Source: Acetofilamentum sp.
GTDB lineage: Bacteria > Bacteroidota > Bacteroidia > Bacteroidales > JAADGE01
Direction of reading: 5' to 3'
Assembly: GCA_020720665.1 (NCBI GenBank)
Contig: DYOF01000014.1
Coordinates: forward strand, 1 to 34,388
DNA length: 34,388 nucleotides
Of this stretch, positions 10,420 through 32,800 are shown one piece after another; the stretch's first letter is position 1, and the number at the start of each line of letters is the position of its first letter. The notes below the pieces were generated by a model. The model did not search any database and was not told the origin of the DNA. It saw nothing but the letters and a program-made list of their open reading frames with translations. The translations under genes and the position numbers were made by a program.

Positions 10420-10452
10420 TTTGTTAAAATTTGTTAAAAAGGTTTAATTTTG
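10420..10452 (+). promoter_or_regulatory. Candidate lpxD promoter with a 10-bp tandem duplication (TTTGTTAAAA x2) and TAATTTTG -7-like element (10445-10452)
   Basis: Exact 10-mer tandem at 10420-10439 carrying the TTTG element; TAATTTTG matches TAnnTTTG. Confidence 0.45.
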
Positions 10453-10463
10453 TAAAAAAAACA

Positions 10464-11486
10464 ATGGAATTTTCTGCTGAACAAATAGCCGGTTTATTAG
10501 GAGGCATTATTGAAGGTCAAAAAGATATAAAAGTAAATAATATATCTAAAATTGAAGATGCCCAAGAAGGTACCCTTGCTTTTTTGGCTAACCCGAAATA
10601 TACTTCGTATATATATTCTACCAAAGCTTCAATTGTTCTTGTTAATAATGATTTTAAACCTGATAAAACAATTTCTGCAACCCTTATTAAGGTAGAAGAT
10701 GCCTACAAAGCATTTGCTTCTTTGTTGGAGATATATCAGCAATACAAATCAAATAAAATAGGCATTTCTGATAAAGCCGTTATTGAAAAAACCGCACAAA
10801 TAGGTGAAGATGTATATATCGGCGCTAATGTTTACATCGGTGAAAATGCAATTATTGAAAAGGAAGCTAAAATTTATCCGAATACCTATATCGGCGACCG
10901 AGTTACAATCGGTGAGCATACAACAATTTATTCAGGAACAAATATTTATTCAGATTGTTTACTCGGAAAATATTGCACTGTTCATTCAGGAGTTGTAATC
11001 GGAAGCGACGGTTTTGGTTTTGCGCCTCAAACAGACTCAGAATTTAAAAAAGTTCCGCAAATTGGGAATGTTGTTATAGAAAATAATGTTGAAATCGGAG
11101 CAAATACAACTATTGACAGAGCAACAATAGGTTCAACACGAATTAAAAACGGTGTGAAACTTGACAATTTAGTTCAAATTGCACATAATGTTGAAATTGG
11201 CGAAAACACGGTTATCGCCTCACAAACCGGTGTATCCGGCTCCACAAAAATAGGTAAAAATTGTATGATTGCCGGGCAAGTCGGCTTTGCCGGACACTTA
11301 AATATAGGTAATAATGTAAAAATAGGAGCACAATCCGGTGTTCATAAAAATATTCCGGATAATTCCATTTTACAAGGCACTCCGGTTGTTCCGTACAGAG
11401 AGTGGTATAAAACAGCATCTATCCTTATGAAATTACCGGAAATGAAAGTAACCATAGATAAATTGAAAAAACAAATTGAATCATAA
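10464..11486 (+). CDS. lpxD: UDP-3-O-(3-hydroxyacyl)glucosamine N-acyltransferase
   Basis: Left-handed beta-helix hexapeptide repeats, HSGVVIGSDGFGFAPQ, TTIDRATIGSTRI. Track start 10431 is a TTG inside the probable promoter; ATG 10464 (MEFSAEQIAGLLGG) preferred. Confidence 0.93.
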   Translation: MEFSAEQIAGLLGGIIEGQKDIKVNNISKIEDAQEGTLAFLANPKYTSYIYSTKASIVLVNNDFKPDKTISATLIKVEDAYKAFASLLEIYQQYKSNKIGISDKAVIEKTAQIGEDVYIGANVYIGENAIIEKEAKIYPNTYIGDRVTIGEHTTIYSGTNIYSDCLLGKYCTVHSGVVIGSDGFGFAPQTDSEFKKVPQIGNVVIENNVEIGANTTIDRATIGSTRIKNGVKLDNLVQIAHNVEIGENTVIASQTGVSGSTKIGKNCMIAGQVGFAGHLNIGNNVKIGAQSGVHKNIPDNSILQGTPVVPYREWYKTASILMKLPEMKVTIDKLKKQIES

Positions 11487-11495
11487 TCGGATACA

Positions 11496-12890
11496 ATGTC
11501 AGAAAAACAATTAACAATAAAAAAAGAAATCAGCCTTAAAGGAACCGGGCTTCATACCGGAAAAGATGTAACCATAACATTTAAACCGGCTCCTGAAAAC
11601 ACCGGTTATATTTTCAGACGAGTAGATTTAGAAAACAAGCCGGAAGTTAAAGCCTTAGTTGATTTTGTTGTAGAAACTTCTCGAAGTACCGTTTTACAAA
11701 ATAAAGAAGCTGTAGTTGCAACCGTAGAACATGTTTTATCTGCTGTGTACGGTACCGGTATTGACAATTTATACATTGAAATAGACGGGCCCGAAACACC
11801 CATTTTAGACGGAAGTTCTCAACTTTATGTTAAAGTACTCAATGAAGTCGGTTTTGTAGAACAAGATGCCGAAAAACAATATTTTGAATTAACAGAACCG
11901 ATAGAACTTATTGATAAAGTTAAAGACAGTAAAATTTATGCTTATCCTGCTAAAGAGTTGAGTTTAAATGTAATGATTGATTACAATTCTACAGTTCTGG
12001 GAAATCAGTATGCCTGTTTAAATTCATTATCCGATTATAAAACAGAAATAGCACCAAGCAAAACTTTTGTTTTCCTTAAAGAGATAGAAATTTTATTAAA
12101 AAACAATCAAATAAAAGGTGGTGATTTAAGCAATGCCTTAGTTATTGTAGATAAGGATTTTACTCAAAAAGAGTTAGACCGAATAGCCGATTTATTTCAT
12201 AAAGACCATCAAATTTATAACGGAAGAGGCGTAATAAATGAAAAAGATATGACTTTTTCCAATGAACCGGCTCGTCATAAATTACTTGATTTAATAGGAG
12301 ACATGGCACTTTCGGGTATGCACATAAAAGGCAAAATTATTGCAAGTAAACCCGGTCATTTTTCTAATATATTGTTTGTTAAAAAAATCAGAGAACAAAT
12401 ACAAAAAAGTCAAAAAGAAGCAAATATTCCGGTTTATAACGAAAGCATAAAACCGATTTATGATATAAACGGAATTAAAAAAATATTACCCCACAGACCC
12501 CCGTTTTTATTAGTTGATAAAATCATTGAATTGTCGGAAAATCATATAGTCGGAATTAAAAACGTAACTGTAAATGAAGATTTTTTCAGCGGGCATTTTC
12601 CCGAAGAACCACTCATGCCCGGTGTTCTTATTGTTGAGGCAATGGCTCAAACAGGCGGCATTTTAGTTTTGAATTCGGTAAAAGACCCTGAAAATTATCT
12701 CACTTATTTTTTAAAAATTGATAATGTTAAATTTAAGAAAAAGGTTGTTCCGGGTGATACGCTTATTTTTAAGTTAGAATTAATATCTCCGATAAGAAGA
12801 GGAATTGCAAATATGAAAGCCGAGGCATTTGTAGGCAATAACTTGGTAACTGAAGGGGAGTTTACCGCACAAATATCAAAAGTTAAATAA
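11496..12890 (+). CDS. lpxC/fabZ: Bifunctional UDP-3-O-acyl-N-acetylglucosamine deacetylase / 3-hydroxyacyl-ACP dehydratase (LpxC-FabZ fusion)
   Basis: N-terminal LpxC (GTGLHTGKDVTITF, VEHVLSAVYG, DGSSQLYV, HKLLDLIGDMALSG); C-terminal FabZ from about 12462 (ILPHRPPFLLVDKI, GHFPEEPLMPGVLIVEAMAQ). Confidence 0.96.
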   Translation: MSEKQLTIKKEISLKGTGLHTGKDVTITFKPAPENTGYIFRRVDLENKPEVKALVDFVVETSRSTVLQNKEAVVATVEHVLSAVYGTGIDNLYIEIDGPETPILDGSSQLYVKVLNEVGFVEQDAEKQYFELTEPIELIDKVKDSKIYAYPAKELSLNVMIDYNSTVLGNQYACLNSLSDYKTEIAPSKTFVFLKEIEILLKNNQIKGGDLSNALVIVDKDFTQKELDRIADLFHKDHQIYNGRGVINEKDMTFSNEPARHKLLDLIGDMALSGMHIKGKIIASKPGHFSNILFVKKIREQIQKSQKEANIPVYNESIKPIYDINGIKKILPHRPPFLLVDKIIELSENHIVGIKNVTVNEDFFSGHFPEEPLMPGVLIVEAMAQTGGILVLNSVKDPENYLTYFLKIDNVKFKKKVVPGDTLIFKLELISPIRRGIANMKAEAFVGNNLVTEGEFTAQISKVK

Positions 12891-12912
12891 TTAAATAAAT
12901 AATTTTACATAC

Positions 12913-13710
12913 ATGAAAAGTCCGTTAGCCCAAATCCATCCGAATGCTAAAATAGCAGAAAGTGCTGTTATTGATGCCTTTGTTACAATTGAAGAAGATG
13001 TTGTTATCGGTGAGTTTACGCATATTTTTCCGAATGCGGTTATTATGAACGGAGCACGTATAGGTAATCATGTTCAAATTTTTCCGGGAGCTGTTATTTC
13101 TGCAGTACCGCAAGATTTAAAATATGCCGGTGAAAAAACAAGCGTCGAAATAGGAAATAATACAATTGTCAGAGAATGTGTTACAATTAACAAAGGAACT
13201 GCCGCAAAACAAAAAACCATTATCGGAACTAATTGTTTAATAATGGCTTATTCGCACGTTGCACACGATTGTATTTTAGGAAATCACATCATTCTTGCAA
13301 ACGGTGTTCAATTAGCCGGAGAAGTTGAAGTTGATGATTATGCAATTCTGGGAGGCGGAACATTGGTTCATCAATTCACAAGAATAGGAAAGCATGTAAT
13401 GACACAAGGCGGGTTATTATTAGGAAAAGATGTTCCTCCCTATGTTATGGCGGCAAGAGAGCCGGTGTCATTTGCCGGATTAAATTCCGTTGGGCTCAGA
13501 CGAAGAAACTTTACCAACGAGCAAATTAATTCCATACAAGATATATACAGAATCATTTTCAGCAGCGGTTTAAATTATAAAGATGCTGTTGAAAAAGTTG
13601 AATCAGAAATTGAGGATTCTCCTGAAAAACAAATCATTTTAAGTTTTATTAAGCAATCGAACAGAGGCTTAATTGCCGGATATTCTGTTAAAAAGAATAA
13701 AAAATCTTAA
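12913..13710 (+). CDS. lpxA: UDP-N-acetylglucosamine acyltransferase
   Basis: 265 aa; IHPNAKIAESAVIDAFVTIEEDVVIG, VPQDLKYAGEKTSVEIG, GLNSVGLRRRNF. Confidence 0.96.
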   Translation: MKSPLAQIHPNAKIAESAVIDAFVTIEEDVVIGEFTHIFPNAVIMNGARIGNHVQIFPGAVISAVPQDLKYAGEKTSVEIGNNTIVRECVTINKGTAAKQKTIIGTNCLIMAYSHVAHDCILGNHIILANGVQLAGEVEVDDYAILGGGTLVHQFTRIGKHVMTQGGLLLGKDVPPYVMAAREPVSFAGLNSVGLRRRNFTNEQINSIQDIYRIIFSSGLNYKDAVEKVESEIEDSPEKQIILSFIKQSNRGLIAGYSVKKNKKS

Positions 13711-17810: not shown

Positions 17811-20348
17811 ATGAGCAAAAACTTAGTAATTGTTGAATCTCCGGCTAAAGCAAAAACAATTGAAAAATTTCTGGGAAAAAATTACACGGTTAAATCAAGT
17901 TACGGACATATCCGCGATTTAGTCAAAAAAAACTACGGAATTGATATTGAAAATAATTTTCAACCGGAATATATGGTAATGCCGGACAAAAAGAAAGTAA
18001 TTACCGAATTGAAAAAGGAAGTTAAAAATGCTGATTTGGTATTATTAGCATCCGATGAAGATCGTGAAGGAGAGGCAATTGCATGGCATTTATATGAAGT
18101 TTTAGATTTAAAAAATAAAAACACAAAACGAATCGTTTTTAATGAAATAACCGATACTGCAATAAAAAATGCCGTTAACAACCCCGGAGATATCAATTTA
18201 GATTTAGTAAATGCTCAACAAGCTCGCAGAATTTTAGACCGATTAGTAGGTTTTGAACTCTCTTCTGTACTGTGGAAAAAAGTTCAGTCAAAATTATCTG
18301 CCGGTAGAGTACAATCCGTTGCTGTCAGAATGTTAGTTGAACGAGAACGAGAAATTATAAATTTTATTCCTGAAACGTACTTTAAACTTATCGGAGAATT
18401 TGACATTTTTGATAAAAACAGAACAACATCAGTTCTTCTTTCTGAACTTTCTGAAAAATTAAAAGACGAAAAGGATGTTTTAAGTTTTTTCAAAGAAATT
18501 AATAATGCCGAATTTATTATTTCACAAGTTGAAACAAAACCCGGCAAACGTTCACCCGCCCCACCGTTTACAACATCTTCTTTACAACAGGAAGCAAGCA
18601 GAAAGTTAGGATTCCCCGTTGGTAAAACAATGACAGTCGCACAAAAATTATATGAAAACGGTCATATAACATACATGAGAACCGATTCATTTAATTTGTC
18701 CGATGTAGCAATAAATACAGCAAAAGAATTTATAATAAAAGAATTCGGAAAAGAATATCATTCCAAACGAATTTATAAAACAAAAACAAAAGGGGCGCAA
18801 GAAGCCCATGAAGCAATTCGCCCGACATACATTCAAAACAAAACTGTTTCAGGTTCATACGATGAAGTCAAATTGTATGATTTAATAAGAAAACGAACAA
18901 TTGCCTCTCAAATGAGTGATGCCGAATTTGAAAAAACAAATATTGTTATAGATTTTAAACATCCCGAATATACTTTTGAAACCTCCGGTGAAGTCTTAGT
19001 TTTTCCCGGGTTCCTTAAAGTTTACACTGAAGATTCATATTTTAAAAAAGAAACAGAATTATTACCTCCGGTAAAAATCGGTCAAATTATTCAATTGAAC
19101 GAAATAAATGCCGAACAAAAATTTACTAAGCATCCGTCAAGATATTCAGAAGCATCATTGGTTAAACAACTTGAAGACAAAGGAATAGGTCGTCCTTCAA
19201 CCTATGCTCCGACAATTTCAACCATTCAAAACAGAGGCTATGCAGTAAAAGAATCCAGAAACGGAGTTGAAAAAGAAATTTTACACCTTATATATAAGAC
19301 CGACAAAAACATTACTAAAAAAATTTTGCTTAAAGAAGTCGAAGCTGAAAAAAACAAACTGTTCCCGACAGATATTGCTATGGTTGTTACCGATTTCCTA
19401 ATAGAAAACTTTGACAATATCATTGATTTTAATTTTACCGCAAATGTTGAAAAAGAATTTGATGATATCGCAGAAGGCGAAATCGTTTGGTATAAAATGA
19501 TAGAAAAATTCTACAAAGAATTTAATCAAAAAGTACAAACAACCCTAAAAGACGCCGAAAGAAATACCGGAGAGCGAATACTCGGATTACACCCAATAAC
19601 CGGTAAGCAAATTTCGGTAAGAATCGGAAAATACGGTCCGATAGTGCAATCAGGAACTATCGGTGACAATGATAATTTACAATACGCAAGTTTAAATAAA
19701 GATCACTATATTGAAACAATCAGCTTAGAAGAAGCTATAGAAATTTTGGAAAATTCCGGAAACGGAAAATTTTTAGGTGTTGATACCGAAACCGGCAAAA
19801 ATGTTTATGCTCGTTTTGCCCGATTCGGAGCAATTGTTCAATTGGGTGAAACCGGTGAAAAAGATGACAAACCCAAATACGCAGGTTTAATTAAAGGCAT
19901 GACAATTGATACCATTACTCTTAAAGAAGCACTAAAATTATTAGAATTACCGCGTTATATAGGTGATTTTGAAAATAAAAAAATTATTGCGGCTGTCGGT
20001 AAATTTGGCCCCTATATCAGCCACGATTCAAAATTTGTATCGCTTAAAAAAACAGATAATCCTTTAAATATAACATTAGAAAGAGCTATTGAGCTGATTG
20101 AAGAAAAAAGAATTTCAGACGAAAAAAGAATTATTAAAGAATTTACTGAAAATTCAGATGTAAAAATTATTAAAGACCGATGGGGAAAACCATGCATTTT
20201 TTATAATAAAAAATATATACGTATTAACCCAAAAACTAATCCCGAAACATTAAACCTATCTGAATGTTTAAAACTGATAGAAGCTGAAATGCCGTTAAAA
20301 AAAACGAATACTAAGAAACCCGTTACTAAAAACAAAAAGAAAAAATAA
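17811..20348 (+). CDS. topA: DNA topoisomerase I (type IA)
   Basis: 845 aa; Toprim NLVIVESPAKAKTIEKFLG, DEDREGEAIAWHL, GHITYMRTDSFNLS active site, QLEDKGIGRPSTYAPTISTI; C-terminal topoisomerase repeats and Lys-rich tail. Confidence 0.97.
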   Translation: MSKNLVIVESPAKAKTIEKFLGKNYTVKSSYGHIRDLVKKNYGIDIENNFQPEYMVMPDKKKVITELKKEVKNADLVLLASDEDREGEAIAWHLYEVLDLKNKNTKRIVFNEITDTAIKNAVNNPGDINLDLVNAQQARRILDRLVGFELSSVLWKKVQSKLSAGRVQSVAVRMLVEREREIINFIPETYFKLIGEFDIFDKNRTTSVLLSELSEKLKDEKDVLSFFKEINNAEFIISQVETKPGKRSPAPPFTTSSLQQEASRKLGFPVGKTMTVAQKLYENGHITYMRTDSFNLSDVAINTAKEFIIKEFGKEYHSKRIYKTKTKGAQEAHEAIRPTYIQNKTVSGSYDEVKLYDLIRKRTIASQMSDAEFEKTNIVIDFKHPEYTFETSGEVLVFPGFLKVYTEDSYFKKETELLPPVKIGQIIQLNEINAEQKFTKHPSRYSEASLVKQLEDKGIGRPSTYAPTISTIQNRGYAVKESRNGVEKEILHLIYKTDKNITKKILLKEVEAEKNKLFPTDIAMVVTDFLIENFDNIIDFNFTANVEKEFDDIAEGEIVWYKMIEKFYKEFNQKVQTTLKDAERNTGERILGLHPITGKQISVRIGKYGPIVQSGTIGDNDNLQYASLNKDHYIETISLEEAIEILENSGNGKFLGVDTETGKNVYARFARFGAIVQLGETGEKDDKPKYAGLIKGMTIDTITLKEALKLLELPRYIGDFENKKIIAAVGKFGPYISHDSKFVSLKKTDNPLNITLERAIELIEEKRISDEKRIIKEFTENSDVKIIKDRWGKPCIFYNKKYIRINPKTNPETLNLSECLKLIEAEMPLKKTNTKKPVTKNKKKK

Positions 20349-20355
20349 ATTTTCA

Positions 20356-21519
20356 ATGATTAAAACTATTTCTGATTTTATTAATCCTGTTAAAACAGAC
20401 TATTATAATTTACCTGATTATAAGGGAAAAGATTTATTATTCTCCGAAGTTAATTTTTATAATCCGAAAAAATCAGAAGAATTACCAAAGAAAATTGACA
20501 TCGCAATAATCGGCATCTCTGAAGACAGAAATTCTTCACATCCCGGCTCATCTTATGCTCCGGCTGAAATTCGAAAAGAACTTTATAAATTATATGCATC
20601 CTCAAAAATAAATATCGTAGATTTCGGAAACATTAAAAACGGCAAAACTGTTAAAGACACATATTTTGCAATAACAGAAGTCATATACGAATTATTAAAA
20701 AAAGAAATAATCGTAATTGTTTTGGGCGGCAGTAAAGATTTATTTTTTCCTATTTGTAATGCATACGAAAAAGGTTCAAAAAATTTTAGCCTTTGTGTAG
20801 CCGAACCCAAATTTTCTTTAAAACAAGAAGGAGAAGTTTTTAATGACACAAATTATTTAACCGAAATCATAGAAAAAAATACAAAATTATTTAATTACAC
20901 AAACCTCGGATACCAAACCTATTACAACTCTTCATCTTCAATTAATTACATACATCAAAAATACGAAGCACTAAGATTGGGATTATCTCGCACGGATTTG
21001 CGTGTCAATGAGCCTTACATCAGAGATGCCGATATATTCGGCATTGATTTGGCTGCAATAAAAAAAACAGACGCTCCGGGTGTTATTCCCTGCTCAATTC
21101 ACGGTTACTACGGCGAAGAAATCTGTCAATTAGCAAAATATGCCGGATTAAGCGACCGCACATCGGTTTTGGGTATATTCAATTTAAATCCTACGGTTGA
21201 TATTAACAATCAAACCGCAGAACTCTCCGCCCAAATTATATGGCATGTTATTCAAGGAATAGCATACAGAACAAATGAAATACCATGCAACACGTCAGAT
21301 AAATTCAGACGATACATCGTTAAAGTAAGCGGTATAAACCAAAACATTAATTTCATCAAAAGCCTTAAAACCGGCCGCTGGTGGTATGAAATTATCCACA
21401 AAACAAAAAAGGAAGAAAAATATAAATACATTTCTTGTTCATTTGAAGATTATATCAAAGCTTCCGGAGACGAAATTCCGGAAAGGTGGTGGAAATTTTA
21501 CAAAAAATTAATTTTATAA
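20356..21519 (+). CDS. Arginase/formimidoylglutamase-fold (ureohydrolase superfamily) protein, probably lacking the metal site
   Basis: 387 aa; superfamily-like IDIAIIGISEDRNSSHPGSSYAPAEIRKELYKL and VIVLGGSKDLFFPI, but GGDHS reads GGSKD and DAHxD is absent; 7 nt downstream of topA. Confidence 0.75.
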   Translation: MIKTISDFINPVKTDYYNLPDYKGKDLLFSEVNFYNPKKSEELPKKIDIAIIGISEDRNSSHPGSSYAPAEIRKELYKLYASSKINIVDFGNIKNGKTVKDTYFAITEVIYELLKKEIIVIVLGGSKDLFFPICNAYEKGSKNFSLCVAEPKFSLKQEGEVFNDTNYLTEIIEKNTKLFNYTNLGYQTYYNSSSSINYIHQKYEALRLGLSRTDLRVNEPYIRDADIFGIDLAAIKKTDAPGVIPCSIHGYYGEEICQLAKYAGLSDRTSVLGIFNLNPTVDINNQTAELSAQIIWHVIQGIAYRTNEIPCNTSDKFRRYIVKVSGINQNINFIKSLKTGRWWYEIIHKTKKEEKYKYISCSFEDYIKASGDEIPERWWKFYKKLIL

Positions 21520-21659
21520 ACATTACACCGCTAACCCCTTATTTTCAAAAGAAAAACGATGATTTATAACACATACTGTAAATAAAAAATTTGCCGAATT
21601 AATATAATTTTAATCAAAAAAAAGAGTTTATTAAAAAAAATATTATTTAATTTGTATTA

Positions 21660-22607
21660 ATGAAGAAAATATTTCTATTAATAGCATTGTCTATTTTTTC
21701 AACGGACATATTTTCACAACAAGATCCGCAATTTGCCCATAACAGTCATAATCTGTTATTTACAAACCCTGCTTATGCAGGAATGACTGACGGAATATGT
21801 GCATCTGCAATAAGCAGACAACAATGGGTTGGATTTGAAGGTGCTCCGATAACTACTTTAGCAGGAATACACACTAAAGTAAAGTTATTCGGAATAACTT
21901 CAGGAGTCGGATTAACAATAATGGATGACAGATATGAGTTTGAAAAAAATTTTCAAGCAAAGCTAGCATACTCATATCATAAAAGAATCAGTTCTGGTGT
22001 TCTTGGTATTGGTGCAGACTTAGGTTTTATCAATAAAGATTTAAAAGGAGAATGGAAATATCCCGATCCTGACGGAAGTTCAGACCCATTTATTTTTATA
22101 AATGAAGGCGGAACAAAAGCCGCATTCTTATTTGATATGGGTATTGGTGCTTATTATAAAATCGGCGAAAAATTTTATGCCGGGTTTTCCGTTTCGCATA
22201 TTTTACAACCGAATATAAATTATTTTAACATTAACTCGGCATCATTTTTGAGAAGACATTATTTTGCAACTGCCGGTTATAATTTCAGGCTTTTAAACAG
22301 CCCTGTTGAAATGCAACCTTCAGTTTTTGTTAAGTTTGACGGAACGAAAATGCAATACAGCGGAAATATTTCTGCTCTGTACAATAAAAAAATACGCATC
22401 GGCGTTACGTATAGGAATCTTGAATCGTTTATTCCTATGATAGGTATAGATTTAATAGGCGGATTAAAAATAGGATACGCATACGAAATTCCGATTACAA
22501 AATTAATAACAGTCAGTAAGGGCTCACATGAAGTTTTTGTCGGTTATTGCTTTGACTTTTGGGGTACAAATAATAATTATAAATACAAAAGCATACTTTA
22601 TTTATAG
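21660..22607 (+). CDS. PorP/SprF family type IX secretion system membrane protein
   Basis: 315 aa; signal peptide, SQQDPQFAHNSHNLLFTNPAYAGMTDG...SRQQWVGFEGAPITT characteristic of the PorP/SprF family; directly upstream of gldK. Confidence 0.92.
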   Translation: MKKIFLLIALSIFSTDIFSQQDPQFAHNSHNLLFTNPAYAGMTDGICASAISRQQWVGFEGAPITTLAGIHTKVKLFGITSGVGLTIMDDRYEFEKNFQAKLAYSYHKRISSGVLGIGADLGFINKDLKGEWKYPDPDGSSDPFIFINEGGTKAAFLFDMGIGAYYKIGEKFYAGFSVSHILQPNINYFNINSASFLRRHYFATAGYNFRLLNSPVEMQPSVFVKFDGTKMQYSGNISALYNKKIRIGVTYRNLESFIPMIGIDLIGGLKIGYAYEIPITKLITVSKGSHEVFVGYCFDFWGTNNNYKYKSILYL

Positions 22608-22640: not shown

Positions 22641-24059
22641 ATGAAAAAGTTAATTATTTTATCTTTTGGTTTTGTTGCATTATTAATCGCAAGCTGCGGA
22701 GGAAACAGCAGTCAAGGAGAACTTGTCGGTGTAGGTGATGCCGGCGATTGGTTTGAACCCACTCCTTACGGAATGGTTTTTATACCCTCAGGAAGTTATA
22801 ATATGGGCTTAAACGATCAAGATATAACTTATGCGCACACGTCTCAATCAAAAACGGTTTCTATTGACCCTTTTTGGATGGATGAAACAGAAATCACAAA
22901 CAGCGAGTATAAACAATTTGTTTATTGGGTCAGAGATTCAATTGCCAAAAGATTATTATTAGCTAACGATTTTGAAGAATTTAAAAGAGAAATAGACCCC
23001 GAGGTTCTTACCATTCTTGAAGCTGACGGATACGATCATGAAGATGCTCAAAATTGTTTCTTAAATTGGGATATTGAAGTTGATTACAATAGAGCTGACG
23101 AAGAATTCCAAACAGCTTTAAATGAACTATTTTTACCTTCACATGAACGCTTCTACAAACAAAAAGAAATTGATACACGCAAATTAATTTTTTCATACGA
23201 ATGGGTTGATTTAAAACAAGCTGCTAATCGTAATAATAAATATTATTTTGATGAAGATTTTACCGGAGGTGAATACAAAGGTAATGTCGTAAATTCAAAA
23301 GGAGAAACTGTTCCTGTAAAAGACCGCTCTGCATTTATTATGCAAGATAAAATTGATGTTTATCCCGACACATTAGTTTGGATGAGAGATTATACCTATT
23401 CATATAACGAACCTTTCGCAAGAAGATACTTCTGGCATAGTGCTTATAATTCTTATCCGGTTGTCGGTATTACATGGAAACAAGCAAATGCTTTTGCAAT
23501 TTGGAGAACCGATTTAATGAGAAATTATAATAAAGCCAACGAATTACCGGTGTACCAAGATTATCGATTACCTACAGAAGCTGAGTGGGAATATGCAGCC
23601 AGAGGCGGTTTAGATCTCTCAATGTATCCTTGGGGCGGTATTTACACAAGAAATGTACACGGTTGTTTTATTGCTAACTTTAAACCACTCAGAGGACGTT
23701 ACGGTGATGACGGAGCAAACAGAACTCTTGAAGTTAAAAGATTTGCACCTAATGAATACCACCTATATGATATGGCCGGTAACGTAGCAGAATGGACAAG
23801 TAACGCTTTTGATGAATCAGCTTATAGTTTTACACACGATTTGAATCCCGATTACAGATATAATGCAAAATCAGAAGACCCACCGGCATTAAAACGTAAA
23901 GTTATCAGAGGCGGTTCTTGGAAAGATGTTTCTTACTATATGCAAGTCGGAGCCAGAGCATACGAATACCAAGATACGGCTAAGTCTTATATCGGTTTCA
24001 GATGTGTCAGGTCATATATGGGAAGTGACGATTATGCTTGGGATGTTAATAATTTTTAA
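22641..24059 (+). CDS. gldK: T9SS/gliding lipoprotein GldK (PorK), FGE-sulfatase-like fold
   Basis: 472 aa; lipobox LLIASCGGN; PYGMVFIPSGSYNMG, DPFWMDETEITNSEYKQFV, RLPTEAEWEYAARGG, GFRCVRS; followed by gldL-M-N. Confidence 0.94.
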   Translation: MKKLIILSFGFVALLIASCGGNSSQGELVGVGDAGDWFEPTPYGMVFIPSGSYNMGLNDQDITYAHTSQSKTVSIDPFWMDETEITNSEYKQFVYWVRDSIAKRLLLANDFEEFKREIDPEVLTILEADGYDHEDAQNCFLNWDIEVDYNRADEEFQTALNELFLPSHERFYKQKEIDTRKLIFSYEWVDLKQAANRNNKYYFDEDFTGGEYKGNVVNSKGETVPVKDRSAFIMQDKIDVYPDTLVWMRDYTYSYNEPFARRYFWHSAYNSYPVVGITWKQANAFAIWRTDLMRNYNKANELPVYQDYRLPTEAEWEYAARGGLDLSMYPWGGIYTRNVHGCFIANFKPLRGRYGDDGANRTLEVKRFAPNEYHLYDMAGNVAEWTSNAFDESAYSFTHDLNPDYRYNAKSEDPPALKRKVIRGGSWKDVSYYMQVGARAYEYQDTAKSYIGFRCVRSYMGSDDYAWDVNNF

Positions 24060-24093
24060 TTCAAAACGACAGTACGCATAATTTAATTTTATA

Positions 24094-24128
24094 CAAGGTA
24101 TTTTTAGTCGTATTCTGAAAATACCTTG
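24094..24128 (+). repeat. Intercistronic inverted repeat / RNA hairpin between gldK and gldL
   Basis: CAAGGTATTTT...AAAATACCTTG, 11-bp perfect arms (14 bp with a G-U), loop TCGTATT; no uninterrupted U-tract follows. Confidence 0.7.
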
Positions 24129-24236
24129 ATTATTTAAAAAAGTTTAATGAATAAATTTTGTTTTATATTTATTTTTTTTTAATTTTATACGATATTTTAA
24201 AAATTCAAATTATTATTAATTCTAAATTTTGATATT

Positions 24237-25121
24237 ATGGCTAATTTCACAGAAAGTCACAAGTGGAAAGTTTACATGAAGTACTTATACGGATGGGGTG
24301 CTTCAATCGTTTTGGTCGGTGCATTATTCAAATTAACACACTGGCCCGGTGCAACTGCAATGCTGACAGTAGGACTTATTACAGAAGCAATTATTTTCTT
24401 TTTCTCAGCTTTTGAACCATTACATGAAGAATTGGATTGGACATTGGTTTACCCCGAGTTAGCAGGATTAGACGGAGCAGTAGAAGTACACGCACACAAA
24501 GAAGCAGTAAAAACTTCATCGTCAGATGCAATCACTAAATTTAATGCAATGATTGAGAAAGCCGGTGACACAAATGTATTTGAAAAATTTGGAAGCGGAA
24601 TCGAAAATCTTAACCAAAGAGTTTCTCAAATGTCAGACATTACAGATGCCTCAGTTGCAACAAATGAATATACTAAAAACATGAAGGGCGCAGCCGGAGC
24701 GGTAGGAAATTTAATTGAGTCATATAATAAATCTGCCGAAGCAGTCAGTTATTCCGCAGACAGCTTATCCGATTCTTTTAACACAATTTCTCAAAAAGTA
24801 AGCGACGGCGGAAATGACTTTTCTGATGCTTATAAACGTTTAACCCAATCAATGGATTTGGATTTTTCAGCACTTCAAGAAGGAAATTCAGAATATAACG
24901 GACATATCGGTAAATTAAATAAAAATCTTGCTGCATTAAATGCTATTTTTGAATTACAATTAAATGAAACTGACTTAGAGCAAATGATGATTGATTTACA
25001 AGGTTCGGTTGAGCATTCAAAAAAATATAATAATGAAATTACAAAATTAGGACATAAGCTTGAAGCTCTTAATACTGTATACGGAAACATGCTAAGTGCA
25101 ATGAATATTAAAATGGACTGA
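24237..25121 (+). CDS. gldL: T9SS/gliding inner-membrane motor protein GldL (PorL)
   Basis: 294 aa; two N-terminal TM helices with YGWGASIVLVGALFKLTHWPGA and GLITEAIIFFFSAFEP; position between gldK and gldM. Confidence 0.95.
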   Translation: MANFTESHKWKVYMKYLYGWGASIVLVGALFKLTHWPGATAMLTVGLITEAIIFFFSAFEPLHEELDWTLVYPELAGLDGAVEVHAHKEAVKTSSSDAITKFNAMIEKAGDTNVFEKFGSGIENLNQRVSQMSDITDASVATNEYTKNMKGAAGAVGNLIESYNKSAEAVSYSADSLSDSFNTISQKVSDGGNDFSDAYKRLTQSMDLDFSALQEGNSEYNGHIGKLNKNLAALNAIFELQLNETDLEQMMIDLQGSVEHSKKYNNEITKLGHKLEALNTVYGNMLSAMNIKMD

Positions 25122-25174
25122 TCCTTTTTATTATCTTGAATTTTATTTATTTGATAATTTAAAAAATACAGATT

Positions 25175-26761
25175 ATGAGTCATGGTAATTTATCACCAAG
25201 GCAGAAAATGATTAACATCATGTACCTTATCCTCACGGCTTTGCTTGCAATGAACGTGTCGGCAGAGGTTTTGAATGCATTTGTCTTGGTTAACGATAGT
25301 TTAATTAAAACAGAAAAAGGTATTACTGCTAAAAATTCTGACATATACTCAGAATTAGGTTCAAAATATGAAGCTAATAAAAATAAAGTAAAACCATGGA
25401 AAGATAAAGCAGATATTGTTCAAACTCAAACAAAAGAAATGGTTGAATATATTTCTGCTTTACAAAAAGATATTCTTGAGTTTGCTGATGAAGATTATAA
25501 ATCGTTTTTAGACAACGGAACAAAGGTTATTGAAAAAAAAGACGATAGAGAAGGTCCTTTATTTGTAATGTTGGAAGATGAATCTCAAGGCAAAATCAGA
25601 GCATTGATTCTCAAAGAGAAATTGAAAGAATACAGAGAGAAAGTAGAATCTGTATTAGAAGGAGTACCGAATTCAGAAACTATTTTATCCGGTATGAAAG
25701 ACAACCTAAGTACCGATGCGATTGTAGGACAAGAAGGAAAACCCGTTGATTGGGAAATTGCTAATTTCAATCAATTACCCTTAGTTGCCGTTATCACAAT
25801 GTTAACTAAGCTCAAAACTGATATTTTAAATACCGAATCTGATGCTGTTACAAGTTTAATTTCGCAAGTTGATGCTAAATCTTTCAAATTTACTGAATTA
25901 AATGCAATTGTAAAATCTGACCAAGGTTTTGTTTTACAAGGGGAGAAATATGAAGCCAGAATTTTTATCGCCGCTTCAGACACATCTCAAGACCCTATTA
26001 TTGAAATGGCAGACGGTACAATCTTGAAAACAGATTCAACAGGAAAGGGTATATTTATCGGTGCAACAGGTGCACCGGGTATAAAGCCGATAAAAGGTAA
26101 AATTAAAGTTTTAAAACCGGGTTCAGCAACTGAAATGTTGGAATTTCCCTTTGAGTCGGAATATCAAGTTGCCGTACCAAGCGTAAGTGTCTCTCCGACA
26201 GCTATGAACGTGTTTTATATCGGTGTTGATAATCCTGTTGAAATTACAGCAGCAGGAACGCCTGCCGATAAAATAAATGCGAGCATGTCAGGAGCAGGTG
26301 GAACAATCACTCACAAAGGCGGTTCGGCTTATAATGTAAAAGTTAAAACACCCGGAACAACCAATGTTAACGTTTCAACTAACGGAAGAGGTTTAGGTTC
26401 AAAGGAATTCAGAGTTAAGTCTTTACCTAATCCGATAACTACAATCGGTGGTCCGACTGCTACATTTTTCAAAGGCGGAAGTATCCCTCAATCTACATTA
26501 TTGGCTTTGAGCGGAATTAACGCTACTATGGAAAATTTTGATTTTGCACTAACATTTAATATTACTCAATTTTCCTTATCATGCAGTATAGGAGGTTTTG
26601 ATGAAAGTGCTCCGTCAAACAGCAGAAACTTTACAGCTCAACAAAAAGCAATCATTAGAAAAGCAAAAAAAGGAAATCGTGTTATTATTGAAGAAGTAAG
26701 AGCATCAGGACCTGACGGGCAAACAAGAAAAATTAACGATCTTGTTTTAAAATTATTATAG
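25175..26761 (+). CDS. gldM: T9SS/gliding motor protein GldM (PorM)
   Basis: 528 aa; LSPRQKMINIMYLILTALLAMNVSAEVLNAF N-terminal TM; large periplasmic region; position in operon. Confidence 0.96.
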   Translation: MSHGNLSPRQKMINIMYLILTALLAMNVSAEVLNAFVLVNDSLIKTEKGITAKNSDIYSELGSKYEANKNKVKPWKDKADIVQTQTKEMVEYISALQKDILEFADEDYKSFLDNGTKVIEKKDDREGPLFVMLEDESQGKIRALILKEKLKEYREKVESVLEGVPNSETILSGMKDNLSTDAIVGQEGKPVDWEIANFNQLPLVAVITMLTKLKTDILNTESDAVTSLISQVDAKSFKFTELNAIVKSDQGFVLQGEKYEARIFIAASDTSQDPIIEMADGTILKTDSTGKGIFIGATGAPGIKPIKGKIKVLKPGSATEMLEFPFESEYQVAVPSVSVSPTAMNVFYIGVDNPVEITAAGTPADKINASMSGAGGTITHKGGSAYNVKVKTPGTTNVNVSTNGRGLGSKEFRVKSLPNPITTIGGPTATFFKGGSIPQSTLLALSGINATMENFDFALTFNITQFSLSCSIGGFDESAPSNSRNFTAQQKAIIRKAKKGNRVIIEEVRASGPDGQTRKINDLVLKLL

Positions 26762-26801
26762 TTTTTTAACAAGAAATGAAATATAAACAAAAAATTTACG
26801 T

Positions 26802-26835
26802 TTAACTATTAAGTATTAATTAATTTAATAGTTAA
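26802..26835 (+). repeat. Intercistronic inverted repeat between gldM and gldN
   Basis: TTAACTATTAA (26802-26812) / TTAATAGTTAA (26825-26835), perfect 11-bp arms. Confidence 0.65.
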
Positions 26836-26865
26836 TCGATAAATTAAATCAAAAATTATATCCGA

Positions 26866-27705
26866 ATGAAAAAAACTTTGTATTCATTATTAGGACTATT
26901 TTTATTGTTGTCCGTTACTGATATAGCTTCAGCACAAGTGGAAGGTGTGTATATAAGAGAAACGACAGAAAAGAGAAAACCTATACCGTTTCAACACATT
27001 AGAGAGGCTGATGTGATGTGGTCCAAAGTAATTTGGCGACGTGTTAATTTAACAGAAAAAAGAAATCTTTCTCTATTTTATCCTACTTGGGATATGGAAG
27101 ATCGCAAAAGTTTAATTCAATTAATGATGTGGGGAATTAAAAATAAAAGTTTAACTCCCTTTGAATCAGATGATTTTACAACACAATTGACATCTAATGA
27201 AATCGATCAACGTTTCGGAGCAGGAATTGATACAACATACGATTACGATCCTGAAACCGGAGAAGCTATTCCTTTAATTACAAAACGTCCCGCCGATATC
27301 AGTGAAGTAAAAGAATTAATGATAAAAGAGCGATGGATTTTTGATAAACAGCGTTCTGTTATGGAAGCGAGAATTGAAGGTTTATGTCCTATTCGCGTTT
27401 TTTACAGAGAAGATGATTTAGACCAAGCTGAAACACGCTATAAGCAGTTATTCTGGGTATATTTTCCTGAAGCAAGAAATATTTTTGCAAGTCAGGCAAT
27501 TTATAATGAAAATAATCAATCTATGGAATTATCTTATGATGATTATTTCTTAAAAAGAATGTTTGACGGGTATATTTTTAAAGAATCAAATGTTTACGCT
27601 GACAGATTAATTCAAGAATATGCAACCGGTTTGGACGTTCTATTAGAATCGGAAAGAATTAAAGATGAAGTGTTTAGCTATGAACACGATTTATGGGAAT
27701 TTTAA
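26866..27705 (+). CDS. gldN: T9SS/gliding protein GldN (PorN)
   Basis: 279 aa; signal peptide; PIPFQHIREADVMWSKVIWRRVNLTEKRN; directly after gldM. Confidence 0.95.
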   Translation: MKKTLYSLLGLFLLLSVTDIASAQVEGVYIRETTEKRKPIPFQHIREADVMWSKVIWRRVNLTEKRNLSLFYPTWDMEDRKSLIQLMMWGIKNKSLTPFESDDFTTQLTSNEIDQRFGAGIDTTYDYDPETGEAIPLITKRPADISEVKELMIKERWIFDKQRSVMEARIEGLCPIRVFYREDDLDQAETRYKQLFWVYFPEARNIFASQAIYNENNQSMELSYDDYFLKRMFDGYIFKESNVYADRLIQEYATGLDVLLESERIKDEVFSYEHDLWEF

Positions 27706-27897: not shown

Positions 27898-29727
27898 ATG
27901 AAAAACAATTTGTTCGGAGAATTTAATCCGGTTAATGCCCAACAATGGAATGAGAAAATTATACAGGATTTAAAAGGAGCTGATTATGAAAAAACCCTTA
28001 TTTCAGAAAACATCGAAGGAATTAAAATCTATCCGTTTTACTCACCGGAATCACTGAACAAATTTAATATTACTGAACAATTACCGGGTGAATTTCCCTA
28101 TTTGCGAGGCACAGAACAAAAAATTCCAAAACAAATAATACGTGAGGATTTTGTTGTAAATGACTTTGAAAAAGCCAACAAAAAAGCTCACCTGCTAATT
28201 TTAAAAGGTGTAAATTCTTTTGGATTTATTATTGAAAAACCGTTTAAGGATATTGATGACTTCTCAAAGTTATTTCAAGACATTAATTTATCAGAAACAG
28301 AAATTAATTTTATTTCAAATTACAACCATAATTTAATACTCTCATTACTTATTGATTATATTAAAATAAACGAAATTAATCCGAATACAATTTTCGGTTC
28401 TTTAAATTTTGATCCGATAGGAAATAAAACTATTTCTACAAAGGAATCTGACAATTCAGATTTTGATTACTCACAAGAATTAAATACTCTTTTTAAACAA
28501 GATATAAATTTCATACCTAATTTTAAACTGCTGACAGTAAATGCAAGTCATTTTAAAAACGCCGGCTCAAGCAGCGTTCAAGAACTTGCATTTGCCTTAT
28601 CTGTCGGTGTTGAATATTTATCCAATATTCAGGCTAAAAACCCCGGAAGTTTTGCACCAAGAATCTTATTCAAATTCGGCATTACTTCTGATTATTTTAC
28701 CGAAATAGCAAAACTAAGAGCAGCACGATTGCTATGGGCTAAAATTATTGAAGCTTATCAAACTCATTCGCTTGAAGAATCTAAAATGAATATTCATTCA
28801 GAAACGTCAGAATATAACAAAACAATTTATGACCCGCATGTAAATATACTAAGATGTACAACAGAAGCGATGTCGGCAATTATAGGCGGGACAAATTCTT
28901 TATACATAAAGCCTTATAATACAACTTTTGAAGCATCTAATGAGTTTTCAGAGCGAATTGCAAGAAATATTCAAATTATTTTAAAAGAAGAATCGCATTT
29001 TAATCAATTTACAGATCCTGCCGGAGGTTCCTATTATATAGAATATTTAACAGAAAAAATTGCTGAAAAATCGTGGAATTTATTTTTAGAAATAGAGGGG
29101 TACGGCGGTTATTCAACTGCTTTTGATAAAGGGTTTATTAAAGAAAACATTGAATTGCTTACAAATAAAAGAGATGAGAATTTTGCCCTGAGAAAAGAAA
29201 TATTGCTTGGTATCAATCAATATCCGAATCAAAAAGAGCAAGCAAAAGTTCAAAGCAAAAAAAGTCATAAAACTGATAATAAGTTAATAAAAGTTTATCG
29301 AGTGGCTGAAAAATTTGAAGAAATTCGTCAAAAAACAGAACGTTCAAAAAAAAGACCCAAAGTGTTTTTATTTACGATAGGAGACGCGATAATGCAGAAA
29401 GCCGGAGCAGTGTTTTCAGAAAACTTCTTTGCATGCGGCGGCTTTGAAATAATTAAGAATCCAAGTTTTAAATCTGTAAAAGAGGGAATCTCCAAAGCAA
29501 GAAAGTCAAAAGCCGAAATAACGGTTATATGCAGTTCTGATGATGAATATCCGGATATCGTTCCGGTAGTATTTGAGCAAATGAAAGAACAAACGATTAT
29601 TGTTGTTGCAGGCTATCCAAAAAATAGTATTAATGCTTTACAAAATTTCGGCATCAAACACTTCATTCACTTAAATTCAAATATTATTAAAGAATTAGCT
29701 TTATTTCAGAAGGAATTAGGAATATAA
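27898..29727 (+). CDS. mutA: Methylmalonyl-CoA mutase small (beta) subunit
   Basis: 609 aa; TIM-barrel domain (INILRCTTEAMSAIIGGTNSLYIKPYN, FTDPAGGSYYIEYLTEKIAEKSW) plus degenerate B12-binding domain (GDAIMQKAG in place of DxHxxG). Confidence 0.9.
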   Translation: MKNNLFGEFNPVNAQQWNEKIIQDLKGADYEKTLISENIEGIKIYPFYSPESLNKFNITEQLPGEFPYLRGTEQKIPKQIIREDFVVNDFEKANKKAHLLILKGVNSFGFIIEKPFKDIDDFSKLFQDINLSETEINFISNYNHNLILSLLIDYIKINEINPNTIFGSLNFDPIGNKTISTKESDNSDFDYSQELNTLFKQDINFIPNFKLLTVNASHFKNAGSSSVQELAFALSVGVEYLSNIQAKNPGSFAPRILFKFGITSDYFTEIAKLRAARLLWAKIIEAYQTHSLEESKMNIHSETSEYNKTIYDPHVNILRCTTEAMSAIIGGTNSLYIKPYNTTFEASNEFSERIARNIQIILKEESHFNQFTDPAGGSYYIEYLTEKIAEKSWNLFLEIEGYGGYSTAFDKGFIKENIELLTNKRDENFALRKEILLGINQYPNQKEQAKVQSKKSHKTDNKLIKVYRVAEKFEEIRQKTERSKKRPKVFLFTIGDAIMQKAGAVFSENFFACGGFEIIKNPSFKSVKEGISKARKSKAEITVICSSDDEYPDIVPVVFEQMKEQTIIVVAGYPKNSINALQNFGIKHFIHLNSNIIKELALFQKELGI

Positions 29728-29800: not shown

Positions 29801-32800
29801 TTAATTTTTTTTCTTTATTGAATCAAAATCTTCTTTTCGTTTCCAAAAAACAAAAGAATCAAATTTTTTACGTAAAACAAAACCGAGCCCTTGCGTGTAA
29901 TCGCCTTCATTTTCTCTTCCGTCATTTGCTTTATTATAGACTTTAGCTCTAATATTTCCTTTGCGATTTAATTTTGCTTCTAACTCAAATTCACCCACAT
30001 AGTTTTCTTGATTCGTACTTATTTCATTGCCACCGAGACCAAGCCCGCCCTTATATGCTAACCAATTTCCGAATGCCGTACCGGAAACAGTAATTCCGTA
30101 TTCATCCGTTGTGTTTTCTTGTCCTTTTTCATAGATTACGTTGAAGTCGATGTCGTTAACTAATTTTTCTAAAATATTATTGAGTTGTCCGGTTAATAAA
30201 TCGCCTGTTATAGGTGTTGCTTCACTGATTCCGGGTGTTCCGCCACCCTGCGACAGAAATTTTCTTTGAATAAGTAATGACAGAAATTGCTGATTGATTT
30301 CATTTTCGTCAAACGAATTTAATTTATTGGTATATTTGGTATTAACATTTTCAGAAAAATCAATATCTAAATCCAACTTCGGATCGAGTAAATTTTCTGT
30401 CAGATTTAATTCGCAAACAACATCCGATTTTACAATTGGCTCGGTTTCCTCTGTTTTTATTAAAGAATTTAAGGGAACATTTTCTATTTTATGTACAGCT
30501 GTAATGTCAACAATTGCATCTTCAGGATCGCCTGACCAAATTATTTTACTTCCTTTTTCTACATTAAAATTGGTAGAAAACAAATCTAAATCTAATTTAT
30601 AAATTCCTTTTTCAATAATATAGGTTCCGAACATATTAAAATTGCCTTCCTTATCTAATGTTAAATTTAAACCGCCTTGTCCGTTTGTAACAATATCGCC
30701 GCTTCCGGTTGTTATAATTTGTATTTGTGCATCGGGTGTTACATTAAATTTAATATTCATGCTAAATCCTTTTATATCAACACTGTAGTTGTTGCTGCCC
30801 TCAGATATATTGTTCAAACTTGTATCTTTTGATACGAATCGTATAAAATGTTTTTCTTCTTCGGGAGTTTCGTTTGTAGAAATAGGGATAAAAACATAAG
30901 TTTCTTTTTCGGTTGTTATTTCAGCATCTAATTTTAAATCGTCAAACGGACCTGAAATATTTAAGTTGCCTGTGCCGTATGCAATACCGTAAAAGTAGGA
31001 TGAATCTGTGGGATTCAAATTCATTAATTTTAAATTCTGTGCATCAATATCTAAATCAAGTTTGAAATTTTTAAAGCTGTTGTGAGTTATTTTACCTTTT
31101 AAATTCCCGGTTTCATTTTTATTGCCGCTAATAATTTGTGTCGGCATAATCGTTATTTCATTGTTTGTAAATGATACATCCATATCACTTATATTATAAA
31201 ATGTGTTCAAATATTTTAATAAGCCGGTTGTTTGTTTTAATTTGATATTTCCGAAAAATGACGGATTGCTTGGTTTTCCTGTAATATGAATTGCTCCTGT
31301 CAGATATGCCGTGGGATTAAATTGGGTGTATTCTTTGTAATATTCTTCAAAAGTTTTTAAGAGTATGCTCCTTATATCAACAACAAAATTTAAACTGTCT
31401 TTATCGGGCCAGTAGTCGCCATATATGGTATCGTTCATAAATTGATTTTTAGCTCCTTTTAAATTGTAGGCATTGGCATGAATTTTATTTTCATCAGTAA
31501 CCCAAAAACTATTTAAATAAAAATTTCCGAAATTTATATCGTTAATATTCAAAAACATAATCGAGTCTTTTGTGAAAACTAAAGGGTCTTCATATAATTG
31601 TGCTAAAATTGTACTGCCGTTAAGTTCTCCTTCAATTTTAAAATCATTGGGTAACAAGGCTTTAAAATTAGATAAATTAAGATTTTTATATTCAGTAAAC
31701 AGAAAATCACCCGGATATTTCGAAATATTTCCGTCAATTAATATTTTTTGATTATTATGTTTAAACAACAGATTATCAATGCTTATCAAACTGCTGTCAA
31801 TTTTAATATTCGCATCATTAAACGACCATAAAACATCATTTACATTTATTTCTGATTTATCCAGAAAACAATTAAAATATGTTTTTTGAATACTGTTTTT
31901 CTCAAGTTTTATAAGTCCTGAAATATTTGCCGAAAAATTTGAGCTGTCTTTAAAATTGTTCCAATCTAAATTAAAATTTATGCTGTCGTTAATAAAATCT
32001 CCTTCTAAGTTCACGTTTTCAAGAAACAACGATTCGGAGGCAAAAACTTTTGAACCGCCTATCCCGCCGAATATTTTCTTGTTTTTGTTGTAGGCTATTA
32101 AATAAAAATCTTCTATAGTGTATTTTTTATAATTAAACTCTTTTGAATTTAATGACAGATTAAATGTTTCTTTTTCATGGTCATAAAACCCGTATAGCTT
32201 TGTGTTTTCAGAAATTTTATAGTCAGGAAAAAATAAATCCGTCAAATATTTAGGATTTTTAATGTCGGCTTCAATATTTAAAATTCCGTAGTTTTTATTT
32301 TCAATTTCTGAATTTGTGTTGACATCTGCTGTTATATTTTGATTATTTAGTTGAGTTATTAACTGTTTAAGTGATGCATAGGTATCTGACGCATTGTTGG
32401 TTGTAAGAATGTTAATATCTATAGCATCAGAGCGTAATAAAATTTTCTTTTCCTTAATCTCGGTGTTTTCGGTATAAAATCCGTCAATTTTTATTGTTTG
32501 TATTTTTATTAAAACACTGTCTCTTTTATAAACTAAGGGACTTAAAAAATTAACTCGCCCGTTGAAGTCTTCAAATGTAAGACCTTTAAATGTTGCTTTT
32601 GTTCTAAATTTTATAAATGAGTCATCCTTTGCATTATTAAAATTGAGTGCTTTTAAATCGGCATAATTCACCGCTGCCACAATATTAACAGCCGGAATTT
32701 CGGTAAAAAAGTCTATGTTTCCGTTAATTTGTGCATCTATTTCTTTTTGGTTTATGAATATACTGATGCTGTCAATTTTTTTGTCATTTAATTCTGCATA

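Follow-up and report, generated by a model that had tools for sequence, protein, structure and literature searches.

A pseudo-ureohydrolase family of the HutG lineage, widespread in Bacteroidia and often encoded between topA and the T9SS core genes

Background

Competent ureohydrolases require six manganese ligands, in the order H, D, H, D, D and D. In rat arginase I, MnA is held by H101, D124, D128 and D232, and MnB by D124, H126, D232 and D234. The formiminoglutamase of Trypanosoma cruzi is active with Asn replacing the MnA His, so the H101 position tolerates change, and it keeps the ligands of the DAHxD and SxDxD motifs. This enzyme (PDB 2a0m and 4mxr; N114H variant, 4myn) is a structural match of the protein described here, whose family, unlike it, has lost the counterparts of His126 and Asp234. 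Formimidoylglutamase HutG (TIGR01227; PDB 3m1r, 1xfk) shares fold and lineage with the new family, together with a framework of GGxxD, APG and NPxxD motifs, but the family differs from it in having substituted ligands, an extra C-terminal domain and new invariant residues, and the window protein scores below the TIGR01227 cut-off. The top structural match is metformin hydrolase (PDB 8x3g, 8ryi, 8snf), whose MetCb (MfmB) subunit is likewise a pseudoenzyme of ureohydrolase fold, serving as a metal-free partner (PMC11271267). MetCb is encoded beside the active MetCa, whereas the present family lacks such a partner and can supply the sole ureohydrolase-fold protein of a genome. The PorP/GldKLMN core of the T9SS is a different kind of relation: it is the immediate genomic neighbour in many families, yet it is not homologous, lies some 130 nt away and is retained where the pseudo-ureohydrolase gene is missing.

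The locus studied here belongs to an Acetofilamentum sp.; the window, by which we mean the whole stretch of DNA analysed, comprises 34,388 nucleotides. A preliminary description, made from the letters alone, had proposed a maintained pseudoenzyme of ureohydrolase fold with its metal site lost and, more tentatively, a role linked to the T9SS. The genes concerned are as follows.

17811..20348, + strand: topA (PF01131/TIGR01051), the upstream operon partner, separated by a 7-nt gap; adjacency conserved
20356..21519, + strand: pseudo-ureohydrolase gene, 387 aa, with HutG-like fold and C-terminal domain (ORF, PF00491, TIGR01227, hhalign, AF2, Foldseek)
21520..21659, + strand: 140-nt gap between the pseudo-ureohydrolase gene and porP (gap statistics, weak excess of the -7 motif)
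21660..22607, + strand: porP/sprF (PF11751, TIGR03519), the gene that opens the T9SS cluster downstream
22641..27705, + strand: gldK, gldL, gldM and gldN, the T9SS core (TIGR03525, TIGR03513, TIGR03517, TIGR03523)

Two further features of the window lie outside this group. The genes lpxD-lpxC/fabZ-lpxA occupy positions 10431-13710, some 7 kb upstream of the pseudo-ureohydrolase gene, and a TamB-like protein of 1486 aa (PF04357) is encoded at 29801-34261 on the - strand, downstream of methylmalonyl-CoA mutase (27898-29727).

Results and discussion

Ureohydrolase ancestry

The window protein matches PF00491 (Pfam Arginase) with 56.2 bits against a cut-off of 22, and TIGR01227 (HutG) with 80.7 bits, far under the equivalog cut-off of 229.15 bits. 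The HutG entries of the PDB were reached at E = 3e-8 by phmmer and at 2.5e-15 with the family profile, and hhalign aligned the family with functional HutG of the same phylum at 100% (E = 8e-47), with 27% profile-to-profile identity over residues 24-306. An AlphaFold2 model, for which a 28-member family alignment served as input, attained a pLDDT of 92.2 and a pTM of 0.92. Foldseek matched the model to 240 PDB chains at E<=0.001, with a best E of 1.2e-19; the 50 matches listed are all ureohydrolases, headed by metformin hydrolase and then Bacillus HutG, at E of about 1e-19. This ancestry is not a chance resemblance, and the arginase/agmatinase-superfamily architecture read from the letters is borne out by PF00491, hhalign, AlphaFold2 and Foldseek alike. 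It had also been foreseen that automated annotation would probably mislead, and annotation from existing family models would indeed tend to name an arginase-family protein or a formimidoylglutamase.

Loss of the metal ligands in the window protein

Against functional HutG, hhalign places K127, E150, K152, S154, D231 and A233 at the ligand columns H, D, H, D, D and D. The H101 column of the functional HutG alignment, where the window has K127, holds His or Asn. The altered positions are these.

20725..20739, + strand: degenerate GGDHS motif (GGSKD), with Lys127 at the position of arginase-I His101, an MnA ligand (hhalign)
20797..20817, + strand: degenerate DAHxD motif (VAEPKFS), with Glu150 for Asp124, Lys152 for His126 and Ser154 for Asp128 (hhalign)
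21037..21081, + strand: degenerate SxDxDxxDP region, FGIDLAAIKKTDAPG, with Asp231 kept at D232 and Ala233 at D234 (hhalign)
21181..21183, + strand: Asn276 at the position of the substrate-binding Glu of arginase, E277 (alignment column)

All three motifs quoted in the preliminary description (GGSKD, VAEPKF at 20797-20814, and the degenerate SxDxDxxDP region) were verified at their positions, and its estimate that at most one Asp was kept agrees with the single identical ligand of the six in the hhalign alignment. The set required of a competent ureohydrolase is thus absent from the window protein, which has K, E, K, S, D and A. Ligands that are present but shifted were ruled out by the alignment with functional HutG together with the columns of the family.

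A family present throughout the class

Profile searching of genome contigs with the family alignment recovered 584 relatives, where a single-protein query gave none. The family is present in about 318-322 of the 345 genomes sampled from the class (318 at E<1e-25), the class being Bacteroidia as read from named family records. Members typically share 30-40% identity, and those named come from Flavobacterium, Mucilaginibacter, Tenacibaculum, Lutibacter and many Bacteroidales MAGs. We found no paper in the openly licensed literature on the gene, its linkage or its phenotype, and within that literature the family appears to be previously undescribed.

Scoring orthologues at the six ligand positions, a check that had been proposed for this protein, returned a complete set in 0 of 150 aligned members (MAFFT columns, in which the divergent family f6 and a few members from the order are poorly aligned). 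The losses are uneven. The ligands specific to MnB have nearly gone throughout the family, with His at the His126 position in 6/150 and Asp at the Asp234 position in 4/150. Asp persists at the positions of Asp124 (139/150, 93%), Asp128 (129/150, 86%) and Asp232 (140/150, 93%), and the His101 position is occupied by Gln in 109 members, His in 18 and Asn in 11, giving a common pattern of Q-D-x-D-D-x. At the E277 position, Glu stands in 99/150 members (66%) and in 17/17 aligned true ureohydrolases; in the comparison set of ureohydrolases, whose 18 rows come from the same genomes and from further classes within the phylum, nearly all ligands are retained. Two genus mates of the window read NDVNNR and KEKNDN against KEKSDA in the window itself, and the genus thus lies at the family's more degenerate extreme. 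The earlier phrase 'metal site lost' consequently fits the window genus and overstates the case for the family, in which most orthologues keep three of four carboxylates; at family level the wording suggested by the alignment is that the second metal site has been lost and the first altered.

New invariant residues and an orphan C-terminal domain

Ten residues are near-invariant in the family and seldom or never seen in true ureohydrolases: R58, F203, R207, G209 (98%), E219 (99%), P220 (98%), R223 (99%), C257, G273 and W296 (100%). Q187 is invariant as well and occurs in about half of the true enzymes. A core that has changed and is nevertheless conserved suggests that the pocket still serves some function. 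All members have in addition a domain of about 80 aa beyond the ureohydrolase fold.

21271..21516, + strand: family-specific C-terminal domain, residues 306-387, with the pattern FxKS..RWW..C..DY..A....P..W; four strands and two helices

Residues F333, W342, W343, C361, Y366 and P375 of this domain are conserved, and the domain modelled alone with AlphaFold2 has a pLDDT of 87. It returned no Foldseek match in the PDB at E<=0.001 and no PDB sequence match above noise, and the window's own copy has no Pfam match.

Maintenance of the gene

As the preliminary description had it, the reading frame is intact and begins 7 nt past topA: it encodes 387 aa, and the topA stop falls at 20348. Compared with two genus mates, the window protein shows 51-61% identity and is the product of the fastest-changing gene of the cluster. 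Its dN of 0.31-0.42 (NG86) stands against a saturated dS, which indicates that the gene is maintained. The 387-aa frame, the class-wide relatives and a dN well below dS rule out a decaying gene. The notion of a maintained pseudoenzyme accordingly held up, given purifying selection, class-wide conservation and ligands that are substituted rather than shifted.

Candidate functions of the altered pocket

We favour, with a probability of roughly 60%, the reading that the protein is a cytosolic pseudoenzyme of the HutG lineage acting by binding or regulation without hydrolysis. It is probably located in the cytosol, no signal peptide being apparent by eye. The binuclear Mn centre of a HutG-lineage fold would have been dismantled stepwise: the MnB-specific ligands (His126, Asp234) would have disappeared at or close to the family ancestor, His101 being replaced in most cases by Gln, and most of the remaining ligands would then have been lost in the window genus. 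Judging from residue conservation, the old active-site region may have been rebuilt around R58, R207, G209, E219-P220-R223, G273 and W296. The product would be a ligand-sensing or protein-binding module made together with topoisomerase I and devoid of hydrolase activity, with the new C-terminal domain as its likely contact surface; the MnA position of most relatives could still accommodate one metal.

That last prospect opens on to a different view, in which the protein is still an active enzyme that works on a new substrate through a metal site that is mononuclear (MnA-only) or otherwise altered, the window genus being a late degenerate branch. The retention of the MnA carboxylates (86-93%) and of the substrate Glu (66%) is more than a pure scaffold would call for and is compatible with metal binding or changed catalysis. 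His or Asn at H101 in 29/150 members and the strong conservation of the new residue set also favour an active enzyme. Against this, about 96-97% of the family lack the MnB-specific ligands, and the window genus has lost its MnA ligands too while its gene remains under purifying selection. Continued catalysis is doubtful in our judgement.

Very improbable is a third possibility, that the protein pairs as a non-catalytic subunit with an active ureohydrolase of its own cell, in the manner of MetCb with MetCa. The metal-free nature of MetCb (PMC11271267), the rank of metformin hydrolase as top Foldseek match and the presence of one good ureohydrolase elsewhere in the window genome (195.7 bits) would all suit such an arrangement, but no active paralogue lies beside the gene in the loci examined, and in genomes G099 and G423 the pseudo-ureohydrolase is the only PF00491 member genome-wide. 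These two genomes rule out, as a general rule, an obligate partnership with an active ureohydrolase.

Genomic context: coupling to topA

Among 104 loci with enough flanking sequence, 51 have both topA and gld genes beside the pseudo-ureohydrolase, 22 topA only, 5 gld only and 26 neither, synteny with topA (73/104) being commoner than synteny with gldKLMN (56/104). The gap from topA to the gene is often short, with occasional 4-nt overlaps; on the other side, 57 nt or more, and typically about 130 nt, separate the gene from porP or gldK. By this spacing the gene looks like an operon partner of topA placed before a separate T9SS operon, whose promoter is likely to lie in the gap at 21520..21659. 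A Bacteroidota-type -7 motif precedes porP or gldK in 17 gaps against 9.3 expected (shuffle maximum, 18), and its spaced two-box form in 5 against 1.1 expected; because the -7 motif is only mildly enriched, the idea of a separate promoter draws mainly on gap length.

Other arrangements occur. In loci L048, L053-L055 and L129 the gene is near gldK and topA is not adjacent; in L053-L055 its sequence is divergent and it lies in opposite orientation to gldK, about 1.3 kb apart. Downstream of the gene in loci L035 and L037 (family f2) stand between one and three copies of a paralogous family of 373-381 aa (cluster c25), whose N-terminus looks like a signal peptide. Where the gene is away from both topA and gld, lpx genes (L038, L194) or an lpxA-like ORF (L045) are found within a few kb, and this proximity, with that in the window, may be residual ancestral gene order.

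Co-occurrence with the T9SS

We sampled 160 genomes of the order that were at least 97% complete, accepting a true family member at E<1e-40 and tallying members from the table. A member occurs in 108 and GldM in 148, and 106 of the 108 carriers are GldM-positive (Fisher p about 3e-4, uncorrected for phylogeny). Of the two exceptions, G542 carries the gene close to a contig end with gldK alongside, and incomplete assembly probably accounts for its missing GldM. The other, G639 (locus L193), is T9SS-negative and keeps the order PBP1-topA-pseudo-ureohydrolase on one contig; its copy is shortened and eroded, with a 332-aa frame that matches only from profile position 142, possibly through decay after loss of the T9SS. 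In the wider class, G423 has an intact, full-scoring copy with no GldM, no GldK scoring above cut-off and no SprA match, the SprA negative being a weak one because SprA was also missed in G002, a GldM-positive genus mate. Apart from G423 and G639, the gene is mostly absent where the T9SS is absent, among few independently sampled T9SS losses.

The converse does not hold. The gene is lacking in 42/148 GldM-positive genomes of the order, and in four of these (L221, L222, L228 and L230) porP or gldK comes straight after topA, the T9SS operon being intact and the gene missing. The T9SS, then, does not need the gene: these four absences at the same locus exclude a strict T9SS component, and the protein is not required by the system. 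In a further locus, L227 (G538), gldL-gldM occur without a recognisable gldK or porP directly upstream and without the pseudo-ureohydrolase, possibly a rearranged T9SS locus.

Genomes with the gene are nonetheless almost always T9SS-positive, which leaves space for a non-essential accessory link and which a purely topA-linked role does not explain. In such a case the protein could be a cytosolic aid to the assembly or tuning of the GldLM motor, or to expression of the gldKLMN operon. This is rather unlikely as matters stand, and since it overlaps with the binding or regulatory reading that we prefer, the probabilities of the readings do not sum to one. The 56/104 loci with gldK-N adjacent, including the families in which topA is not, favour it, as do the 106/108 carriers and the erosion of the copy that survives by topA in T9SS-negative G639. 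The bias among carriers may also reflect shared ancestry, since the sampled T9SS losses are few and clustered. The four locus absences, the 42/148 GldM-positive genomes without the gene, the intact copy of G423 and the 26/104 loci with neither neighbour count against it, and the openly licensed literature yielded neither a paper connecting gene and T9SS nor a mutant. The co-occurrence check that had been proposed thus came out asymmetric; along with gldKLMN synteny it keeps part of the suggested T9SS role alive, while the commoner topA synteny, the topA-like spacing and the absences weigh on the other side, and the link emerges weakly supported.

Within the reading as a non-hydrolytic binding or regulatory protein, a more specific and quite speculative version, which we think improbable, is that the protein detects a cytosolic metabolite of guanidino or amino-acid type in its pocket, emptied or holding a single metal, and acts through the C-terminal domain on topoisomerase I or on the adjacent T9SS operon. 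If true, it would make the protein a class-defining regulator of Bacteroidia that ties nutrient state to supercoiling or surface secretion.

Conclusions

Outside a few lineages, almost all Bacteroidia genomes encode this protein, and its assignment to arginase or formimidoylglutamase by existing family models may lead to mistaken predictions of histidine or arginine catabolism. The family offers a case of stepwise pseudoenzyme evolution, in which the MnB ligands would have been lost first and the MnA ligands later in some lineages, and in which the pseudoenzyme acquired conserved residues of its own together with an orphan C-terminal domain. Model gliders and Bacteroidota of gut or marine origin make the protein tractable.
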